Below, piece by piece: positions 3,725 through 30,641 of a stretch of 33,266 bases of DNA. The stretch's first letter is position 1, and every line of letters begins with the position of its first letter. This DNA comes from Rodentolepis nana. Its lineage: Eukaryota > Platyhelminthes > Cestoda > Cyclophyllidea > Hymenolepididae. The notes below the pieces were generated by a model. That model did not search any database. It saw only the letters and a program-made list of their open reading frames with translations, and had not been told where the DNA came from. A program made the translations under genes and the position numbers. The stretch spans positions 4,920-38,185 of the forward strand of contig UZAE01012534.1 of the NCBI GenBank assembly GCA_900617975.1, read 5' to 3'.

Positions 3725-4345
3725 AGTAAAGCCTGACCGACTCAGAAATCTCTATGGCAGACCCTAAGTAAAGCCTGACTGACTTAGAAATCTCTATGGC
3801 AGATTCTCCTGACTCAGAAATCTCTTTGGCAGATTCTCCTACATCTAGACCGACTCAGAAATCTCCATGGCAGATTCTCAAACATCTAGCTACCGGCTCA
3901 GAAATTTCTATGGCAGATTCTCCAACATCTAGCTAGGAATCAGAAATCTCTATGGCAGATTCTCCAACCTCTAGCTAGAGAACAGCTAAGCTATAGCTCA
4001 GCTATAAAGAAAACAGACGTGTAGCACGGAGCGCGTTTATATCTGTGGCAGATTCTCCTACATCTAGCTAGACTCCCAGAACGGCAGATTCTCCAACGTC
4101 TAGCTAGACTCCCAGAACCAGGGAGATTCTCCTACATCTAGCTAGACTCCCAGAACCAGCTAAACCATAGCCCAGCTATAAAGGAAACAGACGAGTAGCA
4201 CGGAGAATTCTCCAACATCTAGCTAGACTCCCAGAACAAGCTAAGCTATCGAACCAGCTAAGCTATAGCCCAGCTATAAAGGAAACAGACCGAAACCAGC
4301 TAAGCTATAGCCCAGCTATAAAGGAAACAGACGTTTAGCACGGAG
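3725..4345. repeat. Degenerate minisatellite A
   Basis: The block CAGATTCTCC followed by an ACATCTAGCT-like segment recurs at least eight times at irregular spacing of about 30-90 nt. In the first half it alternates with a GACTCAGAAATCTCTATGG block. From about 3980 it alternates with a longer segment containing GCTAAGCTATAGCCCAGCTATAAAGGAAACAGACG, in pieces. Copies differ by point changes and whole-segment insertions, so this is a compound tandem repeat rather than a clean array. It has no coding sense. Confidence 0.85.
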
Positions 4346-4439
4346 CACGTTTATCCAGTACGGGTATTGCGGATCAAGTGTACACGCATGGAGCTACTCA
4401 TGATCAGGATGGGGGAATAGGTTAAACAGAGGTTACTTT

Positions 4440-5058
4440 ATGATCACTGTTTGTACAGTCGCTGCACACAGAGTTGTAAGGCCGCACCTTTTTGTTTGTA
4501 CGATCGCTGCACACAGAGTTATACGGCGCACCTCCCAATCCTGGCGAACTGCACACAAAGTTGTACGGCCGCACCTCCCAATCCTGGCATCTCCCAGTCC
4601 TGGCGTGCAGGCATGCGATGACGTGTCCCACAAGGCTTGTCCCGAGGTTATACGGCGCACCTCCCAATCCTGGCGAACTGCACACAAAGTTGTACGGCCG
4701 CACCTCCCAATCCTGGCCTAGTGATTGGCCACTGTTTGTACGGTCGCTGCACACAGAGTTGGCCGTACCTCCCAATCCTGGCAGCAGACATGCAGGCATA
4801 CGATGCACTGTACGGTCGCTGCACACAGAGTTGTACGGCCGCACCTCTGCTTGTACGATCGCTGCACACAGAGTTCTAGTGATTGGCCACTGTTTGTACG
4901 GTCGCTGCACACAGAGTTGTGGTCGCTGCACACAGAGTTGTACGGCCGCACCTCCCAATCGTACGGTCCCTGCACACAGAGTTGTACGGCCGCACCTCCC
5001 AATCCTGGCGAGCAGACATGCAGGCATACGATGACGCACACAGCGATAACGTGTCCCA
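4440..5058. repeat. GC-rich minisatellite B
   Basis: About ten diverged copies of a roughly 45 nt unit are present. The unit combines GTCGCTGCACACAGAGTT, GTACGGCCGCACC and TCCCAATCCTGGC. Some copies carry inserts such as AGACATGCAGGCATACGATG or GTGATTGGCCACTGTTTGTA. The block is much richer in G+C and CpG than its surroundings. Because the unit has few stop codons, several overlapping frames stay open on both strands, the longest at 4422-5093 on the minus strand (223 residues). They encode only repeated cysteine-rich peptides from the repeat unit, and I do not annotate them as genes. Confidence 0.9.
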
Positions 5059-15429: not shown

Positions 15430-16730
15430 TCACGAATTAAGCAGTTCATTTAGAGTAATATATTCTGGATCCTTCAGTTTAAATTTATCAAAGACAAAAC
15501 TATAAAAATTACGAAATTCCTTCAAGCCGGATTCTCGATCAGATTCATTGAATATATCCTCAATCATCGAAATTTTTAGTTTCCCATGACCGGCAATATC
15601 AAAAGCATTAAAAAGATATCGTATCGATTGAGTCGATTCTCGATTTTCTAGAGCCAATACGAGATCCATATAAGTTCGATAATCCTGTAAACATGTTAAG
15701 TAATAAAGTAGCTGCGTTCTGACATTAAATCATAGCCAACCAAAGAATCTTAACTTACAATAACGCCATTCCTTGACGGATGTGTGGCAAAGAAGAAATC
15801 AACGAAAAATTTACTTAAGTGTCCAATTCCAGTAGGCATTCGAAAGAGTTCATCTCGGGAAAGTGATCCGTCCTTATTAATATCTAATTTGACAAAGTTA
15901 TCATATGCACGTTTGACTGAAGATAGCGTGAAATGGTTATTCGCTGATTTTTTCTCTTTCTTAAAACCAAGAGCAAAAAATGATTCTAGTAATCCAGAGG
16001 CCATAACATCACAAATTCGGACACGTCCAACGCGAATTGGATCAAGAAAAAAGAAGAATCTTCTAGAAATCGTGCATATGTAGTATGGGATGAACCACCG
16101 TTCAATCTTTTTAATTTGCTGCAGAAAGGGAAGTTGGCTTTGCAGGTAATGTTCAAGTTCATGTTCAACTAAATAACCCTTTCCAATCGCATCGTATTTC
16201 GATATTTCAACACGTGTTCGATTAAGCCATGTCATTTTGCTAACATAGGCACAAAAATCGGATAATTTCACTCTTGAAAATTGATCCATTTTCGATAACT
16301 TAGCAAAGACAATTGGTGAGAAAAATTGACTGAAGGAGAAAATTTACATTTAAGAATCTTGAGAAAAGCACCCTTGTGAAGAAAAGCTTTGCAAATCGAA
16401 ACTTACTGCGCTTTAACGCAAATTCGTTGTTTAGCTTGGAGAAAAAGCGGATAACTAATATATTTTTCACTGGTTGGAGAAGACGCTATAGTGCATTCAT
16501 CCAAAGTGGTAAAAATGTTCTACAAAATTATTATCGTTCAAAGTACCAAACTTTGATTTCTTCGTCAGTAAGAATTTCAGAGGCTTTCTTTTTTCTGAGA
16601 GCATGCGCATTTTCCTTACTAATTTCAAAAACTGAATTATCAAAACTCTATGAGGAAAACCATATTTAGAAGGACGACATACTGTCGATTTCATTTTCAG
16701 CTTTTTAAAACCGGGCGAGTTCTTAATCAT
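15430..16730 (-). CDS. Divergent PP2A B'' gamma-like paralogue, probably truncated
   Basis: This is a diverged relative of the intact gene upstream (PPP2R3C family, EF-hand regulatory subunit of protein phosphatase 2A). The best-supported exons are 16329-15759 (starts mid-codon, reads QFFSPIVFAKLS) and 15684-15430 (DYRTYMDLVLALENR), joined by a 74 nt intron. A further exon ends at 16407 with the donor GTAAGT and encodes YISYPLFLQAK. The first EF-hand loop is degenerate (DAIGKGYLVEHE, with Ile and Lys at positions 3 and 5). The second is canonical (DINKDGSLSRDE). The signature RRFFFFLDPIRVGRVRICDV is kept. The 5' exon appears frame-shifted by one base near 16498-16508, and the ATG at 16730 is only a guess. 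At the 3' end the reading TCG TGA coincides with a donor-like TC|GTGAGT at the same place where the intact gene splices to its last exon. The conserved C-terminal YENREA segment is not visible. It may be a short functional protein or a decaying gene. The micro-exon insertion point of the intact gene is uninterrupted here. Confidence 0.7.
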
Positions 16731-17782: not shown

Positions 17783-20700
17783 CTACATATCAGCTTGAAT
17801 ACCAGCTGCAAGGGCTTCGCGATTCTCGTACAACATGAAGCATTGAACGTCGGTCAAAATTCCTAAAACAGTGTCGCCTTTACCTCTGGATCAAAAATAA
17901 GAAAATATTTTGTTAGGTGCCTCAATGAACAGCCAGAAAGTAATGATTGCTCTACTTACGATCTGAGTAAATCGTCCAGTGTAATATAGTCAGGATGCTT
18001 AGGCCGGATCATATCGAAGATTTCATTGATTATATCACATGTTCTTGGAGTATCTGGCCCATCTCCGAGGCTCTCTAAAAGTGAGTTGAGGTAGTACTCA
18101 ACAGTTTTGACGCACAACCGGCCCTGACCCCCTAAATCAACAATTCGGAAGATATAAGCGATTGATTGGGGTTCACTGCGGTTCTCCATTGCTAGGACAA
18201 AATCTAAGTAGACTTTGTAATCCATCTCACCCTCATAAGTGAGACATTCCTGGAAGACGCGATCGAGAAAGGCATCTGTCAGCGACTCGTTATTGTAGCT
18301 TCAAAAGAACGAAAAAATCAGCAACTACTTATTTAGTTTCAGCGAAGAATAGATAGCTAACAAAAACGTCGTTTATGAAGGGGCAGTCAATCTCAATTGG
18401 TTTATTACCCAATTAACTGACTAATTGATTCAATTACAATGACAAATTGAGATTAATGGGCTTAATAAATTAAGGGAATAGCAAAATATACCCGGCTAAC
18501 TCCTTTCTTGAGAGCATGCCATTTTGATCAGTATCCAGTCGAAGATAACTCGCGTAGATACGTTTTGCTGATTCCAAAGAGAACCAATTTTCTTCCAAGC
18601 GTGCCTGAGTTGTAGAAGCTTCTCGTAGCTCTAAAATGTTGTCAAGGAAACCACAAGCAAGGATATCACAGATACGGACGCGTCCAGCACGCAAGGGGTC
18701 GAGGAAAAAGAGGAATTTGCGAACTGCGGTACAGACGTAAAAAGTTCTGAAGGCATCATCGACTCCGTTCAACTAGTGGGGAAAAAAGAAATTACGAGTA
18801 AAACTAATGGGCAATAGAAAATAGATATTGCATGTGACATGAACTTAGCATCAGCGTGCTTAATTTTCACTTGTTCGAGCTCCATCGAGTAATTGAATAA
18901 AGGATTCGAGTCAATTGTCTCATTTTTTAAGGCAGGCAAGACGGAGTTAAACAGAAAATTGTGTCAGCTTCCTCAGAGTAAAACAGCCGTTCTCAGATTT
19001 AGTTTACATGGTTCGACAGTTCAATAGTGAACAACAGAAGTTCATGAACTTCGAACACAAAAATGATGCTACTAACAACTATCAGCACGTCCAAAAATTT
19101 ACAAAAATCTACCAAAGAGTTACCTCTGTCAATTCTTCACCCTGTAATGAAGTCAGAGCGTATAGATTAAAGGGATAGAGGGAGAGCAGAAACAATTAAC
19201 AAAACGTGGGTTGGAAAAAAATACTTCACCTCGAGATAATTTTGGGCAATAGGGCTATATAAAGGAGCCCAGAATAGCTCAAAGACAGGCCACTGAAAGT
19301 AAAATGAAATAAAACAAAGACATGGGATTACTTTCAATAAAAAAACGGATTTAGCAAAAGATCCAATCTATAGGCAGAACATTTAAGTAGACTGAACAAA
19401 GGAACATATAGCTGATAGGGCTAGCGTTTACCGATGCACTGAGAGGGTATTGTTCGAGTTTCTTCAATTTAGTAACCTGGAAAGTGGCAAAAATTAAAGC
19501 GACCATAATAATGCTCAAGTAGAAAGTAAGCAGAGAGAAGGTATATAGTCATCACACAGTGGAGGGAATGTTGATATGCACAGTTGCGTACTAATGCAGT
19601 TATTGACTTACCTCCAATTCTTCGGTTTCTTCTTTCTGGTACGTGGTAAAAAGAGCACAATTAGATGAATATTACCGACTTGGAGTAACTTAAGTAGGCA
19701 TGGAAAGACATCTTAGGAATAGCTTATTTTAAGAAGCATTGAATGCTCGTTTTACCTTGGACGCACTAACAGATTCATCCGTCTATTAAATGAAATGGCA
19801 ACCATGATAAAATTGCGACAAAGACTATTCTAATTATGATAATTCAATTCCAGGGAGCTAGAGATTACCTGAAGAATATGGATACTATTTTTAGTGGGTC
19901 GTTCAGACTAGAACAAGAAAATTAAACTGATAAATAAAGAAAAATAAGTTGCCATTTATAGCAGGTCTCAAGCACTTCATCTTAGAAAGGAACAACTAGA
20001 GCTGAGAGGATAGAAATAAGACCAAGGCATTACTTCATACGAGCGTTCTGTGATAGTCGATAATAAACCAAGTTTACACCACTGATCACAATTATCCTAA
20101 AAAGCCATCTCGACATTTCAACGATTAACAAAAACTCTTAATCAAGAATGGAAGAGGTAGACCTTACTTCGACCTTGCTACTTGTACTCTCACCAACCTA
20201 TGACAATACAAAAAAAGAGTACGAAGGACTTCCCATTTTTTAAAGAGCACTTATTCAAAATACCTCGGATGTTGAAGACCCATCAACCAAAGAAGCATCA
20301 GTCTAGAGCATGACGGAAAGAGATAATCATTAAAGCGATAAAGTGTTAAAGTATAGGGGGGGGGGGGGGGGGGAGACAACCAATAGCTCACTTCTGGAGG
20401 CTTAACAATTACTTCTGGATTCCGAGTAGACTCCTCAGTCTAGTACAAAAAAATGTTAATTGGAATAACAATGCCTAAAAAACTGTGCCATGAGAGTATA
20501 GCATATTTTAAACCCATTAGAAAGGGTGAGAGAGAGAAAGAGCAAACAGGAAAATAATAGCCACCTTGGACTTTAAGGAACTTTCATTTGAAACAGTATC
20601 AACCTAGGGGGGCAGATAATTTAATGAGTTACAAATTGCTTAATAAAATCATGTTTTTTTTAATAGACCCAAAGCAAAGAAATAATATATTTAAGAGTTT

Positions 20701-22885
20701 GAATTATGCATTGAGCAAATGTATCGTTCTACCGTTCAGTCGATAAGAATCGATAAACATTCAAGGTCATCGGAGGAAAATAGGGAAGACAGGGAGACAG
20801 AAAAAAGGGTGACAATGAACGAATAGAGAAAACGTGAAATATGAACGGGGGGAATACTTAATAGGGTTACCAAAAAAAGAAGAAAATTTAGGACAGGATA
20901 CAAAAGACATATCTATTTAAAATTTATGAAAATTGGAAAGTACTTGGGAAAAGATAAAGGCATGGGTAAACCTTAAGAAGACAAATTACAGAAGCGAGAA
21001 TTATTAGATAAAAGGAAGAGTAGTCTAAAATAAAGCCTTAAAGAAAGTTATTTTTAATGACAATATCCAGAACTTAATAAAATAAACCATTATTGATATA
21101 TAGCTTTGTTTTTAGGATGACGAAACAATGAAAATAAGAGAGATTTGAGACTCGAAGTCCGCGCATTAATAGAGTAGTTGGTTGGCCACGAAGTTCAGTG
21201 AAATCAGGAAACAACAACATAAATCAGTACGGATAAGTAGAGGTTTAGACATTTTCACATGAAACTGAACATAGACGGAAGATATTAAATCAAAGCCCAC
21301 AGAGCAGACCACTTTACCTGACAATCGATTTCTATAAATTTGGAGGGGGCAACTCTCTGATTACCTAGACGAGAGTCCTAAAAGACAAAAACTGAATAAA
21401 TCCAACTTTTTCCTATGATCTATAAGACACCACATTATCATCCTAGTTTAAAAGGGGAAACCAATAGCTTTATTAACAAATAAGAGATGGACATAGATTA
21501 GCGTTACCAAAGAAAACTCATATTCAGTTGAAGGAGATTTAGAGCTCCAACTTGGTAAGGAAGAATTCTAAAGTAAAATAAATCGATGCAAAGGACGGAA
21601 TGAAGTCACAAGTGAATAAAACATCGTAGTCGAGATAATATATGGTGATAAATACTTTCCGATATTAAATACTAGCATAATAAAAAGTCTACAAGCTTAT
21701 GGATTATGAAACTGAGAATTGGATGGTATTTTAAGAGATTTCAAATTATACCACCTGTTAGACAATAAAATGTTAGCACACCATAATTCGAAAGTTGATC
21801 AAATTCAGATTACAAGAATGCTTAAAATCATGACCTCATTGACTTAAATTAAACCACATATTCGATTCGATAGTATGGAAATATTTGCACAAAAATAGTG
21901 TTCTCAAGGGCCAATACCAAGAAAGCTAACTTTGTTATTTAACAAAAAGGAAAAATTTAGTCCTCCACGAGCACAACCTATATAGAAGATGAAATTAATC
22001 TCAAAAGATGTCATTTTCAGCACATGCGAGGTTCAATTAGAAGCCGCTATCGACCATAAATCACCATAACAAGAACTCTGTAAAAAAACAGCCAAAACCA
22101 AGAAGAAAACACAATTACATGGGGATATAATTAAAAACATCCTAGTAAAAGAAAAATGATGAGAAAAGATGTAATGATTGTGTCTGTAAGGAATGACTAT
22201 GAATCATAAGATAATCCGAGCGCATCAAAATAGAACAAAGAAAAAAACCTACTTTACAGAGAGAAGGAATGAGTTCTGAAATGTAGCTTTCGAGATCACC
22301 TTCCCGAAGGTAACCGTCGCCATGAGCATCGTAGAGGGAAATTCCAATTCGCGTTTGCTGCAACCAGACAGTTTTCATGACGTAGTTGAAGAAACTTAGA
22401 ATGTTCACGCGAGAAAATCGCTCTCCGTGACAGAGTTTGGCGAATATTGTTGCAGTGAAGTATTGCCTAGAAGAACGAGAATAAATTATGCCAAATGGAT
22501 TAAATAAAGAATAGAGAGCCAAACATATAGATATTTTAGCACTTGGCTTTAGGACAGGCTTCATCTTTGGCCTTCAGGAAGTTTGGGTACGTAATAAAAC
22601 TTCTTCCACTATCAGTAGAAGTATCCTTGTATTTCTCAAGAATATTCCATAAATCCTACCAAAATCAAGATATAAATACGACAAAATACTAACAGCTAAG
22701 TCTTCATTATCAAGGAGTCCCGCACTCTTAGCCTCTAGAAGGGAGGCCCTGGCTTCATCCCGAACCTTCTGAGCTAACAAAGTGTTGTTTGTATTCTGAA
22801 TTTCACAGCTGAGAGAAGAAACCACATTTACCTTAGTAAATAGTTCGTCAAGACGAATAGGATCTGTGACTATGGGTTTGAACAT
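17783..22885 (-). CDS. PPP2R3C: Serine/threonine-protein phosphatase 2A regulatory subunit B'' gamma
   Basis: This encodes a homologue of PPP2R3C (G5PR), an EF-hand regulatory subunit of protein phosphatase 2A. Core exons on the minus strand are 22885-22832, 22795-22694, 22655-22543, 22466-22253, 18772-18492, 18298-17960 and 17885-17783. They total 1206 nt and encode 401 residues when joined; the human protein is about 450. Phases agree at every junction. Conserved segments in order are LLDNEDLADLWNIL, FNYVMKTVWLQQTRIGISLY, an EF-hand loop DAHGDGYLREGD (about residues 136-147), FYVCTAVRKFLFFLDPLRAG, a second EF-hand loop DTDQNGMLSRKE (about 241-252), DYKVYLDFVLAMENR and the C-terminal MLYENREALAAG before TAG. 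The start is the first ATG of the exon; the N-terminus is shorter than in vertebrates and an upstream exon cannot be excluded. The first introns are very short (36, 38 and 76 nt). The fourth is 3480 nt and contains the micro-exon array described separately, so longer isoforms of up to about 602 residues are predicted. Overall confidence in family and core exons is high. Confidence 0.93.
18871..21567 (-). other. PPP2R3C: Array of 14 in-phase micro-exons inside the PPP2R3C-like gene
   Basis: Within the 3480 nt fourth intron, small open segments are bounded by AG upstream and GT downstream. In transcript order they are: 21567-21508 (60 nt, NSSLPSWSSKSPSTEYEFSL), 21377-21318 (60, DSRLGNQRVAPSKFIEIDCQ), 20603-20565 (39, VDTVSNESSLKSK), 20439-20392 (48, TEESTRNPEVIVKPPE), 20302-20264 (39, TDASLVDGSSTSE), 20197-20168 (30, VGESTSSKVE), 20096-20034 (63, DNCDQWCKLGLL...), 19907-19869 (39, SERPTKNSIHILQ), 19782-19756 (27, TDESVSASK), 19635-19612 (24, KEETEELE), 19476-19432 (45, VTKLKKLEQYPLSAS), 19292-19230 (63, WPVFELFWAPLYSP...), 19141-19124 (18, GEELTE) and 18918-18871 (48, TIDSNPLFNYSMELEQ). 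Every one is a multiple of three and phase 0, matching the flanking core exons (ends CK, resumes LNGVDD). Together they add 603 nt, or 201 residues, mostly polar and Ser/Thr/Glu-rich. The last has the weakest acceptor. Individual exons could be constitutive or alternative; the sequence alone cannot decide. Confidence 0.8.
20356..20373 (+). repeat. G18 homopolymer run (C18 on the transcribed-strand sense)
   Basis: Eighteen consecutive G residues lie in the intron between two micro-exons (20439-20392 and 20302-20264). In the sense of the minus-strand transcript this is a C18 run about 54 nt upstream of the next exon, so it may act as part of a pyrimidine tract. Its length is likely to vary between individuals and may be uncertain in the assembly. 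Confidence 0.9.
21259..22141 (-). other. PPP2R3C: Additional tentative micro-exons in the same intron
   Basis: These weaker candidates are kept apart from the array. A 23 nt segment (22141-22119) and a 13 nt segment (22077-22065) have fair splice signals, are separated by a 41 nt intron and together make 36 nt in phase (DVFNYIPIVLVM). A 12 nt segment at 21442-21431 (DDNV) has a good acceptor but a weak donor (GTGTCT). A 6 nt segment at 21264-21259 (codons TTT CAT) lies between TTCAG and GTGAAA. Segments this small can arise by chance in pyrimidine-rich DNA. I would accept them only with transcript evidence. Confidence 0.3.
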
Positions 22886-23275: not shown

Positions 23276-23387
23276 GTTTGTATCTTTTATTTCCTTCATT
23301 ACTTATCATTTCAAGGGTAATCTTATAAGCTTATTTTTTAGCAGCTTAAAAAATTATTTTCTGGTCTTGAAGTTTTATCCTTTTCAG

Positions 23388-26300
23388 TGGCTGACCTTAT
23401 TTTACGTATGATTTGGCCTTTTTCTTGGTGTGAATGGACCGAATGGTCCGTTTGTTCTGTGGAACCTTGTTATCCTGGTCGACGTCGCACATATCCCGCT
23501 GTTTCTCGCTCTCCAAAGGAATCTGCAATGCGAGAGTACTGTGTGAATTCTACCGAGCTTCCCATTACCGCTCTTCGCTGGCCAGAAACTGATGAAACTT
23601 ATTCGTCTGTACCGATTAACCCAATGCATATGCGCAGTCGGATTTGCAACTGTACCAGGAAAGGGTTCAGTTTTATCGGCCGTCTTCTGGGCTCCTGCAA
23701 AAGTAATTTTTATAACTGGAATTTCCGAATCCTAAAACTTTCTAATGAAGTAACAACCTCTGGTATCTAAATGCGGTTCTCAGTATTATTGCAGTTCCCC
23801 AATTTTGTTTTTCACGCTCAGAGCTACTTCATTGAACTATAAATTACAATTTTTTGGCATTACCTCGGGCGCTAAAACTAATTATCCTTATTGAAGCATT
23901 ACGTGAGTTAGTGAAAACACTTAATTGGTTCCACTCAGCATCGTCTTCTGCTTGATCTCTTTAATCTCTTAATTGATTTCTCGCACATGGCTTGATGGGA
24001 ACTGTTTTCTACATCATGTTCCCTTTTTATTAATATTAGTATAGGATTATCCGAAGTTCCCTATTCATTATTTTTTTCTGCAAATATTCGTCTATATAAG
24101 ATGCTTCCAACATAGCAGGCTTATTTCGTATTCATTCTATTTCATTATTGATGGGTCATTTGTGGCATTCGCTAATAGGAACGATTATATTGCGTTCTTT
24201 AAACCCATGTATCCAAGGTCCTCTATTAGTGGTGCCCACATCAGTTGGATCGCTCAGTTTACCTGGATTCGCTCCTGCTAAACTCACATTCTGCCGCTTC
24301 GCTTTTCGACCAGTTTTAGCATATGAAAACTCGCATCTCTGGATGGGCGTCAGTTGATATTGGCCTCGAGGCCTCTTATATTTCTTTTACCTAATTGGAA
24401 AAAGTGGATCTTAAGACTTCCTCTGAATTTCTATATATATTTAATCAAGTATAATTAGTCAACATTAATTAAAAACAGACAATTGATGTGATTGAGTATT
24501 TAGAAATCTCAGCAGTTTACTCTTCTAGGTTTGATTCTAATAATTCGACCTTATCGAATTAGCTTGCTTTGTTTAATTTTTAACCCATTCAAAAGGATGG
24601 GTACTTGTGTTAATGTACTCACAAGCGATTTGTCGTTGCTTGTTGGGCTTTTTTCCTCAGATATACGCTTAAGCAGACTAAATCATAATACACCAGTACT
24701 TAGTCACCAATTTTAACCCTTTTCTTTTTAGGGAATGACGAGGTTGTAGATTGTCACAGTTGTTTCCGTGCTAATTCCACAGTCTTCACTCACACCACAG
24801 GTGGTGGAGCCCTTCTATCTTGTAGCCAACTCGCTGATGTTCGTAACGCTGAAGCTGTGGCTAGTGCAGTGGCAAGCTCGAACCGGTTCTACGCCATCCT
24901 GGGTGGTGCCTTGGGCGCAGCCGCCTTCCTTGTTCTAGTCTTCTGTTGTGTTCGTTTCTTCCTTATCTCATCATCATCGAATTCCTCCGCATCCCGACGT
25001 AGGGCTGCTCGAAGGGCGGCTGAAAACACTGCTGGTGAAGGTGGCACTAGTCAAGGTTTAGTTGATGATGATGATCCTGCTCTTAGAAGATCCAGAGTTG
25101 GATTACCTTATTCACATTTGTGAGTCTCTTGTTTTACTATCGATATCACCATATACCTAATGACCTAGGGATGTATTTCATATCGGTAGTGTGCAATAAT
25201 GTTGTATCCAGGGTTTTGAACAATGGAATCCTTTCATTCTTCATTCCTTTTTAAGTTTTTTTTCTCTATTAAAACCAGCTCGGCTTAGATGAATGAATAC
25301 TGCTGCTTTTTGCATAAATCTTTTTAAATCTACCATAAACCCTGAAGATGACATTCTTGTATGTAGCCATGTCCTTTATTAGATGTGAAGCATCAACAAG
25401 CTTTGATATGGTGGTCCTTGCCTCATGTTACCTCAGTTTATATCTAGAAATGTCCCATGCTTCTTATTCCTTTTGGCATTCGATTAAGTTTAGGCCCCAA
25501 AACTGTCCGCTGTACTTATTAGCTTTCCTTTCTTCAGTTAATCTCTTCAGTAGCAAATTCCGTTCTTTTTTGTTAATTTACACGAGTTTATAGTGACTTT
25601 TTCAGAAACTGGTACTTTCGGTATACCCTCTGCCCACTGTCCCAGTAACCATCTTTCCTTGCAGTAATGAAGTTGAAATAACTTTCGATGATTTTCTACA
25701 TCTGTCATTGCCCATGGCACCTGAATAAAAATGAACAATAAATGAGTTCACTGTTTTTCCAAATCAGGAACTCAAGATTAATGGGCGCGAAAGGGAGTGT
25801 GCGTGTGCGAGAGAGAGAGAGCTTAAGGCAGGAAAACAAGTAAAGAGAACGAGGAAGAACACTAGAATTCACCGACTGTACCTTCTGTCTTGTACTCGTC
25901 GTATTCTCAGATTTACCAGGTGAATTTTGAGTTATTGGGAAAGAGACGAGTGCAAGTCTCCAATCAATATTCCCCCTGTCTCGATTAAACAAATTTCAAG
26001 CTAACTAAATCAACACGTGACCATAATTTTTAATCAAACTGAATTAAATGGTTTTCGGTTGGAAATTGTAGGAATGTTTTCTTGCGAATCCTTTAATGCT
26101 TGGAAACGATTTTGTTCATGGAATGAACTAGTACGGAAGTTTATGTCTAAAACAATCTTACGTTGCTTAAATTACTGAAGCATTTGGTTTGCATTCCCAT
26201 ATAGAATATGGTTCAATTTAAGTTCATGTTTATTGTGACATTTAAATCCCATGAATTGACAGCCAAATTACCGAGTGAGTTTATTTCCATTATATTCCAA

Positions 26301-29300: not shown

Positions 29301-30641
29301 TACTCTGTTAATTTGCTTTCTTCTAGCCACAGTAGTCTCGTTGTCTCCATTGCAACTTTCAATTTCATGTTGGACTGCCTTCGAGGAGTGTTGAGGAACC
29401 ATAATCTTTTTATTTTGATGACCAAGACAGATCGCCTATGACTCAAATGGGCTCCAGTGACAATTTTTCGCTTCCAACACGTATTTGAATGGAAATGGGG
29501 GGGGGGTTGTAAACTTTTAAAAGAAACACAGTGTCCGAAAGCATCTTTAATTAGTGTGTACGAAAAAAAACGGCCAAATATTGTTCAGTTAAATTTATCC
29601 TGAACTCCTTATGTGCCCATTTACTGCATTTAGCATCGCATAGTATTTAATTAATATTACTAAATATATCATTAGTTATTTGTAATCACTTTTATGGAAC
29701 TGTATTTTGACGCCTTTTTTCTTTCGATCTTTCCTATCCATCATAATTACATTTTAGCTCGATTCGAAGTTTCAGATGAGTTTTTTTTCATAATTATGAC
29801 TTTATTTCTTCACTAGTTTCCCCTCAACACGCGTATTTGATATTTTCTGAGAGCAGGCATCTGACATCAACATTTTCATTTTAAAAATAAGGAATAATTG
29901 CATCCAATTCCACTTCAATTTGTTTAGGCAACATTTGCAACTCCCATAGACAACTTATTTTTTGTTGATTCATTATTTATTTTTGGTTATTGCTAGTAAT
30001 TGTTACATTTCAGTACAATTGCAGCCAAATATTTGAACATATTTACTTATGAGTAACTTCCATATATCGCCTTTTCTTTACTATAATTACATTTGAAAAA
30101 TCAAAAATAGCCACTTGTAGGTTTTAATCACATCTGATTACGTGAAATAACAAGATCATGAGGAGGTATAGAGTAGGAATATAAAATTGAGCAGTCATCC
30201 AGTGTCTTGGTTTATTTGAAATCATGAGTTATTTAGCAAGGCATTATTCATTTCAGTTGGAATTCTGAACTTCCACCGGCATATAAGGACGTAATGGGCA
30301 TGGCAGTTGTGCTTCCAATCGATCCGGACAATCCACTCACCGTTCAAGCCGACGAGTCTGCCAGAGGGTGTTTGTCTCCATCTACCATGCCACCTCTTCC
30401 AGATTCCACATCTCATACGCAATCTCATTTGCCTTCAATTCCGGTGCAACCAAATCCAATGCCCCCCGAAATTGGTGGAAAGCCCGACATTGATGGTGAC
30501 GAGTATTCAGATGAGCCCCCACCTCCCAGTTACCAGGAGGTCATCGCTTTCTCTCCTTCCGCAGCTGACATGCGCCAACGTATTATGGCTGCTTCTGCGG
30601 AGACCCCTGGAGCTATTCAACAGACACATTCACCTGCTTAA
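23388..30641 (+). CDS. TSP1-domain, single-pass membrane protein with PPxY tail (5' end missing)
   Basis: Three exons join with matching phases: 23388-23702, 24732-25119 and 30257-30641 (stop TAA), with introns of 1029 and 5137 nt. The first carries a thrombospondin type-1 signature, WCEWTEWSVC, followed by CYPGRRRTY and further cysteines (RSRICNCTRKG). The second has a short Cys segment (VVDCHSCFRANST) and a membrane helix (ILGGALGAAAFLVLVFCCVRF). A basic stop-transfer region with SRRRAARRAA and an acidic DDDD patch follow. The third is a proline-rich cytoplasmic tail with LPPAYKDV and PPPPSYQEV, two PPxY motifs of the kind bound by WW domains, including NEDD4-type ubiquitin ligases. The inferred role is a type I surface protein with adhesion or ligand-binding outside and WW-domain-regulated trafficking inside. 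No signal peptide is found, so at least one 5' exon is missing. I do not recognise an exact orthologue; the TM plus PPxY layout recalls Shisa-like adaptors, but that is only an analogy. Confidence 0.82.
25120..30256. other. Long intron of the TSP1 membrane-protein gene
   Basis: The intron begins GTGAGT and ends ATTTCAG. It contains G runs of 14 (26786-26799), 15 (28132-28146) and 10 (29497-29506), and a short GA-dinucleotide run near 25811-25821. Frames open on the minus strand at 27284-27571 and 28867-29103 look somewhat protein-like. The latter is listed as a possible pseudogene. Nothing else can be supported. Confidence 0.6.
28866..29402 (-). pseudogene. Possible decayed coding fragment, unidentified
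   Basis: On the minus strand, 29402-29256 is open from ATG (MVPQHSSKAVQHEIESCNGD) to TGA. Further along, 29103-28867 encodes a protein-like stretch including NWFFFDDNNFYLEMAWLSYN. The frame of the second part extends upstream, through two in-frame stops, into LNYGLYFYNPVKILA. The region is less AT-rich than its surroundings and lacks low-complexity sequence. It could be a broken gene copy or mobile-element remnant lying inside the intron. I recognise no family, and chance open frames are a real alternative. Confidence 0.25.

Follow-up and report, generated by a model that had tools for sequence, protein, structure and literature searches.

Does one large intron of a conserved phosphatase subunit gene hold an array of very small exons and, if so, what might such exons do to the protein? 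The gene lies on the minus strand of the window, a 33,266-nucleotide stretch of DNA from the dwarf tapeworm Rodentolepis (Hymenolepis) nana (Cyclophyllidea, Hymenolepididae) to which all coordinates below refer, and it is PPP2R3C, the gene for PP2A B''gamma. Its seven ordinary coding exons (54, 102, 113, 214, 281, 339 and 103 nt) encode 401 amino acids. Exon 1 (22832..22885, MFKPIVTDPIRLDELFTK) fits the N-terminus of the H. diminuta protein P0003; exon 2 (22694..22795) is preceded by a 36-nt intron and shares its start, NTNNTLLAQKV, with P0003; exon 3 (22543..22655) is preceded by a 38-nt intron; and exon 4 (22253..22466) ends with ELIPSLCK in phase 0. The remaining three, of 281 nt (18492..18772, starting LNGVDDAFRTFYVC), 339 nt (17960..18298) and, with the stop included, 103 nt (17783..17885), lie beyond a 3,480-nt GT-AG intron of phase 0 (18773..22252) that separates the 214-nt from the 281-nt exon and bears out the earlier note, which had claimed an intron of about 3.48 kb in a PPP2R3C-like gene. 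Exon 4 joined to the exon after this intron (ELIPSLCK followed by LNGVDDAFRTFY) aligns without gaps to other PPP2R3C proteins. In a homology search, homologs bear the name B''gamma (animal PPP2R3C), the Anoplocephala ortholog P0005 matches the human PR70 structure 4i5l at 9e-26, and a single R. nana exon matches the PR70 structure 4mew at 1.6e-4. By these sequence comparisons, the gene belongs to the PP2A B'' regulatory subunits and is nearest to B''gamma.

Comparison with H. microstoma shows that the intron carries at least 12 micro-exons, all in phase 0. In H. microstoma, the 571-aa protein P0001 contains an insert of 179 aa, placed precisely where the R. nana array lies; the 12 candidate exons M1-M12, joined, also give 179 aa, and the two align without a gap with 143 of 179 residues identical. 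When the H. microstoma insert was aligned to the R. nana intron by dynamic programming that admitted GT-AG, phase-0 introns only, the alignment returned 12 exons identical to M1-M12 at all borders, with a score of 626, whereas 10 shuffled versions of the query scored between -68 and -19.

All of these exons lie on the minus strand, and residue identities are to H. microstoma unless another species is named. The array begins with M1 (21508..21567, 60 nt, NSSLPSWSSKSPSTEYEFSL; 17/20), M2 (21318..21377, 60 nt, DSRLGNQRVAPSKFIEIDCQ; 14/20) and M3 (20565..20603, 39 nt, VDTVSNESSLKSK; 11/13), and continues with M4 (20392..20439, 48 nt, TEESTRNPEVIVKPPE; 13/16), M5 (20264..20302, 39 nt, TDASLVDGSSTSE; 10/13) and M6 (20168..20197, 30 nt, VGESTSSKVE; 7/10). 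M7 (20034..20096, 63 nt, DNCDQWCKLGLLSTITERSYE; 17/21) has a weak acceptor (-3.5) and holds LSTITE, a match to the pattern LxxIxE. It is followed by M8 (19869..19907, 39 nt, SERPTKNSIHILQ; 8/13), M9 (19756..19782, 27 nt, TDESVSASK; 9/9), M10 (19612..19635, 24 nt, KEETEELE; 4/8), M11 (19432..19476, 45 nt, VTKLKKLEQYPLSAS; 14/15) and M12 (19230..19292, 63 nt, WPVFELFWAPLYSPIAQNYLE), the last identical at 19 of 21 residues in each of three relatives. M9, M1 and M3 are well kept too, and not just M11 and M12. The NCBI model for R. nana, P0002, which fuses most of the PPP2R3C core and a downstream paralog into one model, includes M4, M5, M6, M8, M10 and M11 (75 aa), or six of the 13 exons recognized here once the probable exon M13 is counted. 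Automatic gene models can evidently overlook exons of this kind.

Could these segments be chance open stretches of a T-rich intron and not exons at all? The earlier note had reasoned that 14 segments out of 14 were unlikely to be open and in phase by chance, an argument that is weak alone. Splice sites were scored by a generic consensus, and in-phase open segments were counted against 100 shuffles of the intron: with the cut-off set by the weakest true exon there are 15 such segments, and shuffles give nearly as many (mean 10.4, maximum 16); the other two length classes yield 11 and 13 at the same score. A cut-off of 0 leaves 12 segments (shuffles mean 4.7, maximum 9), a cut-off of 2 leaves 7 (2.2 and 5), and a cut-off of 4 leaves 3 (0.9 and 5). 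When non-overlapping segments are ranked on splice score and nothing else, the top 19 include 7 of the 12 true exons. A codon-preference score derived from the core exons averages +0.27 bits per codon for the claimed frame against -0.30 and -0.44 in the other frames and is positive in 12 of 13 exons, M1 being the exception; 49 control segments average -0.46, and their top value, 0.25, belongs to M14, the earlier note's fourteenth segment, which was left unmasked among the controls. We regard the splice signals as suggestive and the H. microstoma comparison as decisive for the array. Against the exact 179-aa match, and with six exons already in the NCBI model, the probability that the array as a whole is a chance pattern is negligible; that reading is refuted for M1-M12, stands for M14 and keeps some room for M13.

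The count of 14 micro-exons, taken here as the segments between 21567 and 18871, holds in part: 12 have their match in H. microstoma, one more is probable and the last is unsupported. M13 (19124..19141, 18 nt, GEELTE) is probably an exon, having splice scores of 1.4 and 1.1 and a match at four of six residues to GKELAE, which sits at the corresponding place in H. weldensis; the models of H. microstoma and H. diminuta speak against it, as they run M12 directly into LNG. M14 (18871..18918) is unsupported as an exon. Its donor score (0.9) and codon score (+0.25) speak in its favour, but the acceptor scores -9.1, three relatives with an insert there have no counterpart at its place, and the H. weldensis residues after GKELAE, LKSAK, are unlike it. 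The complete insert of H. weldensis, aligned locally, does not discriminate: it scores 28 to the M13 and M14 frames alike, and 33 to an unrelated frame. A further candidate, segment 19367-19332 (IGSFAKSVFLLK), has fair splice scores but a negative codon score, and the three relatives covering its place join M11 straight to M12. The 14 array junctions have no alternative in-step GT/AG pair within 9 nt. Lengths divisible by three and phase 0, which had been claimed for 14 segments, are thus properties of the 13 exons M1-M13; the fourteenth drops out as an exon.

Most of the small exons are kept in related species by protein alignment. In H. diminuta, P0003 carries an insert of 153 aa and 10 exons, nine of them corresponding to M1-M4 and M8-M12 and the other a 13-aa exon, X; in H. 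weldensis, the N-terminally incomplete model P0008 has X, M3-M6, M8-M12, GKELAE and LKSAK. Exons in both species were assigned by protein alignment, in which their order and borders are compatible with those of R. nana. Judged from the species models, exon X occurs in H. diminuta and H. weldensis, and M7 in R. nana and H. microstoma only; a search of the R. nana intron for exon X gave no convincing match. Public models for H. diminuta disagree with one another, P0004 joining K directly to LNG where P0003 carries its 10 exons, and such disagreement may merely reflect missed exons.

Beyond these species the site appears to be almost uniformly uninterrupted. Of 711 candidates for a query made of the insert region (M1-M14 and some ten residues of the core), only four reach E <= 1, all of them Hymenolepis/Rodentolepis proteins: P0001, P0002, P0003 and P0008. 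Among the homologs listed (120 of 516), 119 span the array site, the partial P0008 being the one that does not, and 114 of these 119 have no insertion there. The five that do are P0001, P0002, P0003, the H. weldensis paralog P0006, with an 11-aa insertion, and the cuttlefish protein P0025, with 186 aa of LSLSVCLS-type repeats. The cuttlefish stretch looks like a retained intron, in which case the intron position would be old. Listed homologs free of an insertion include those of five tapeworms that are not hymenolepidids (Anoplocephala, Echinococcus, Taenia, Mesocestoides and Sparganum), along with seven from flukes. In the set of protein models found, then, the insert appears restricted to Hymenolepis/Rodentolepis, and annotations of other tapeworms may have missed micro-exons.

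What the array might do depends on where its product enters the fold. In the PR70 alignment (4i5l chain B), the array site falls between chain positions 128 and 129, counted from the alignment. PR70 is described as two calcineurin-B-like domains comprising EF-hands 1-4 and 5-8, in which helix E4 packs on helices E5 and F6 and Arg260 and Tyr261 lie at the interface (PMC4090178). Directly following the array site the alignment has an Arg-Tyr pair, within FHSRYITTV, and from this pair and the published description of the interface we infer that the site is the linker between EF3 and EF4, immediately before helix E4. In Anoplocephala the site, which separates K161 from L162, lies within a Pfam match to EF-hand_13 (residues 135-211) that is below the cut-off, and the strongest stretch of EF-hand_7 (134-155) stops shortly ahead of it. 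The proposal that in-phase micro-exons lie inside a flatworm PP2A B''gamma gene, directly after an EF-hand, is therefore sustained. Serine and threonine make up 25% of the insert versus 12% of the core, and large hydrophobic residues 26% versus 36%; judged from composition alone, the insert is predicted to be a flexible loop, although M12 is hydrophobic, counter to uniform disorder.

We propose that at least 12, probably 13, micro-exons are variably spliced into this predicted flexible loop, which would reach up to 185 aa and lie between two EF-hand units, a reading that we consider fairly probable. Since M1-M13 are all multiples of three and in phase 0, any of their 8,192 subsets stays in frame, which makes the very many isoforms of the earlier note possible, and alternative inclusion appears likely. 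It is also possible, if a good deal less probable, that the exons are constitutive, so that the gene always makes the same long protein, whose lineage-specific insert is by accident divided among many small exons; the H. microstoma model has 12 exons together, and R. nana has the same 12 in the same order. Symmetric phase 0 would be unnecessary if nothing were skipped, however, the strength of the splice sites is uneven (M5 donor, -2.4; M7 acceptor, -3.5), and the H. diminuta model that skips the entire array, which could be a prediction error, also argues against a single fixed form. Upstream of the 13 exons no regulator motif was found other than T-rich tracts, and TGC occurs in 9 of 13 windows upstream of the micro-exons versus 54% of intron windows.

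Under the variable splicing that we favor, inclusion or skipping of an exon would alter the reach and the binding motifs of the phosphatase subunit and leave its fold untouched. The Ser/Thr-rich M1-M10, presumably disordered, would form a variable tether, and the conserved and partly aromatic M11-M12 would form a docking element ahead of the next helix of the domain; placed directly before E4, they could plausibly act on the E4 interface. The pattern of conservation permits another view. Core residues are 98% identical to H. microstoma (385 of 392 compared, omitting nine R. nana exon 2 residues that are missing from the H. microstoma model), whereas M1-M10 are 77% identical (110/143), and exon content varies between the species models, as exon X and M7 illustrate. 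The loop might accordingly be ballast tolerated in an exposed linker, drifting, with splicing that may vary to no effect. We hold this neutral reading to be rather doubtful, because M11-M12 are 92% identical (33/36), M12 keeps its 19 of 21 residues in each of three relatives, and the 12 frames have stayed open and are of the same length in R. nana as in H. microstoma.

A more specific version of the variable-splicing proposal can be put forward only tentatively, and we think it unlikely as a whole: stage-specific choice among 13 skippable micro-exons would rewire a docking loop of PP2A B''gamma, in which the conserved, aromatic M11-M12 would dock and the LSTITE of M7 could recruit the competing PP2A-B56 holoenzyme. 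LxxIxE is a PP2A-B56 docking motif (PMC7108865), and LSTITE is kept in H. microstoma. As an LxxIxE match arises by chance in 8.9% of shuffled inserts, the M7 motif is only a lead.

How could such an array have arisen? If introns had cut into a ready-made insert, the chance that the 11 introns between M1 and M12 would share one phase is about 6e-6, and 2e-6 with M13, with equal phases assumed. By this reckoning, the array more likely arose from symmetric exons that were added step by step to an intron already present. Each micro-exon would be a symmetric unit, probably inserted singly into the pre-existing intron, as a folded domain would be expected to tolerate only in-frame, skippable units. 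Tandem exon duplication was considered as a source and found unsupported, the best DNA identity among exon starts being 0.50, a value matched by 586 of 1,000 shuffles; among the exon peptides the top-scoring pair reaches 23 (shuffles mean 23.5), and the tenth scores 19 (shuffles mean 17.4, maximum 20). The intron does contain 12 families of short direct repeats. Repeat D8 (16 nt, 81%) spans the starts of M4 and M5, and repeat D1 (26 nt, 73%) spans the acceptors of M4 and M8, which leaves room for an old duplication behind some exons. An origin of the intron as a repeat was rejected, since a search of the 107-Mb assembly that skips simple repeats and very common words found no second copy, the intron matching itself only. 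The M11-M13 peptide likewise matches this locus only, and a search for nested RNA genes found none.

An array placed in the subunit of a core signalling enzyme makes the origin and use of micro-exon arrays testable, aided by the solved fold of relatives, by models without the array in neighbouring families and by a laboratory tapeworm within the lineage. If the more specific and unlikely version set out above is true, a phosphatase subunit with a housekeeping role has become programmable by splicing in hymenolepid tapeworms.

The known systems with which this locus can be compared are the micro-exon genes (MEGs) of flatworms, which have been treated mainly as genes for secreted proteins and whose role has been called poorly understood (PMC7653826). 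Olson et al. (2020) reported 52 MEGs in H. microstoma, defined as genes of seven exons or more, half or more of which are micro-exons (under 70 nt, with a length that is a multiple of three), including four in a row (PMC7653826). With M1-M13 included, the R. nana gene has 20 coding exons, 14 of which are micro-exons when the 54-nt exon 1 is counted, and a run of 13 micro-exons, or 12 without M13. R. nana PPP2R3C qualifies as a MEG by this structural definition, and PPP2R3C may already be among the 52 of H. microstoma. The ten-gene MEG family described in that report has a motif starting MRLFILLCF, whereas the R. nana gene encodes PP2A B''gamma (PMC7653826).

The architecture that it shares with MEGs as defined by Olson et al. 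raises the possibility that the R. nana gene is a secreted, antigen-varying MEG of the schistosome type, and small symmetric exons are indeed common to schistosome MEGs and the R. nana array (PMC4350168, PMC10526429). We regard this as highly improbable. The schistosome proteins are described as having signal peptides and their genes as mostly micro-exonic (PMC4350168, PMC10526429); the R. nana protein, in contrast, has no hydrophobic N-terminus as judged by hydropathy (within the first 50 residues the highest 12-residue mean is 0.93), and micro-exons make up 32% of its coding sequence (555 nt, versus 1,206 nt of core), the other two thirds or so being conserved PP2A B'' core. Since that core is ordinary and a hydrophobic N-terminus is lacking, the picture of small secreted variable proteins that had been carried over from schistosomes does not transfer to this gene.

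Within the titles and abstract openings of a literature that lacks most subscription journals, no description of a micro-exon array in a PP2A subunit was found, and in other animals the PPP2R3C core aligns unbroken at the site, with no array among the protein models listed. By analogy, the closest precedent appears to be a composite gene, Schistosoma mansoni VAL-6 (SmVAL6), which has 38 exons, 17 of them under 20 bp, with the small exons in one phase, and no signal peptide (PMC2270263), and which has been proposed as a VAL/MEG composite (PMC4350168). Like SmVAL6, the R. nana gene combines a conserved domain with small exons of one phase, here 13 in phase 0. The small exons of SmVAL6 lie C-terminal to its conserved domain, whereas the R. 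nana array interrupts the EF-hand core; and alternative splicing has been shown for SmVAL6, where 67 cDNA clones gave 35 isoforms (PMC2270263), whereas in R. nana it is predicted from the exons. The R. nana array is thus a variant within the micro-exon genes of flatworms, one that is placed inside a conserved phosphatase subunit.

Comparison of the micro-exon array with protein models from related tapeworms, with exons in H. diminuta and H. weldensis assigned by protein alignment, points to differences in its composition. Between M2 and M3, the models of H. diminuta (P0003) and H. weldensis (P0008) carry an extra 13-aa exon, TDESSN.ISPKHE. Their M9 comprises 13 residues, as opposed to 9 in R. 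nana and H. microstoma; the latter two species have M7 instead of the 13-aa exon and longer M9. Array content seems to change by whole codons.

Other PPP2R3C-like genes provide further views of the array site. A diverged tandem paralog lies on the minus strand at 15440-16400 and shares 41% identity with the main copy over the 103 residues compared. The site that holds the array in the main copy is uninterrupted exon sequence in this paralog, and two public models, P0002 (R. nana) and P0004 (H. diminuta), fuse it with the main gene. In an H. weldensis paralog (P0006), 11 aa (SLFEIPDMKDE) are inserted at the site. A third copy, L016, on the minus strand of another contig of the R. nana assembly (C3559, 7000-9600), resembles R. 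nana P0019, with 81-84% across two long matches; a splice acceptor is present at the corresponding site, but the expected exon upstream of that acceptor was not found.

Near the 5′ end of the main gene are two very short minus-strand introns, of 38 nt (22656-22693) and 36 nt (22796-22831). The H. microstoma model passes directly from LFTK to KVRD, which lies nine residues further on.

Head-to-head with the main gene, plus-strand open frames at 23342-25123 look, by eye, like a cysteine-rich membrane protein with a thrombospondin-1-like motif (WTEWSVCS); a Pfam search returned no matches for frame 23342-23770 and nothing above threshold for 24704-25123, where all matches were sub-threshold. Overlapping tandem repeats occupy 3739-5004, with reported periods of 16 to 85 bases, mostly 36-45, and several frames are open over part of this stretch. 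A plus-strand frame at 30237-30641, which had no matches in a Pfam search, contains PPAY and PPSY, motifs of the type recognized by WW-domain ubiquitin ligases.
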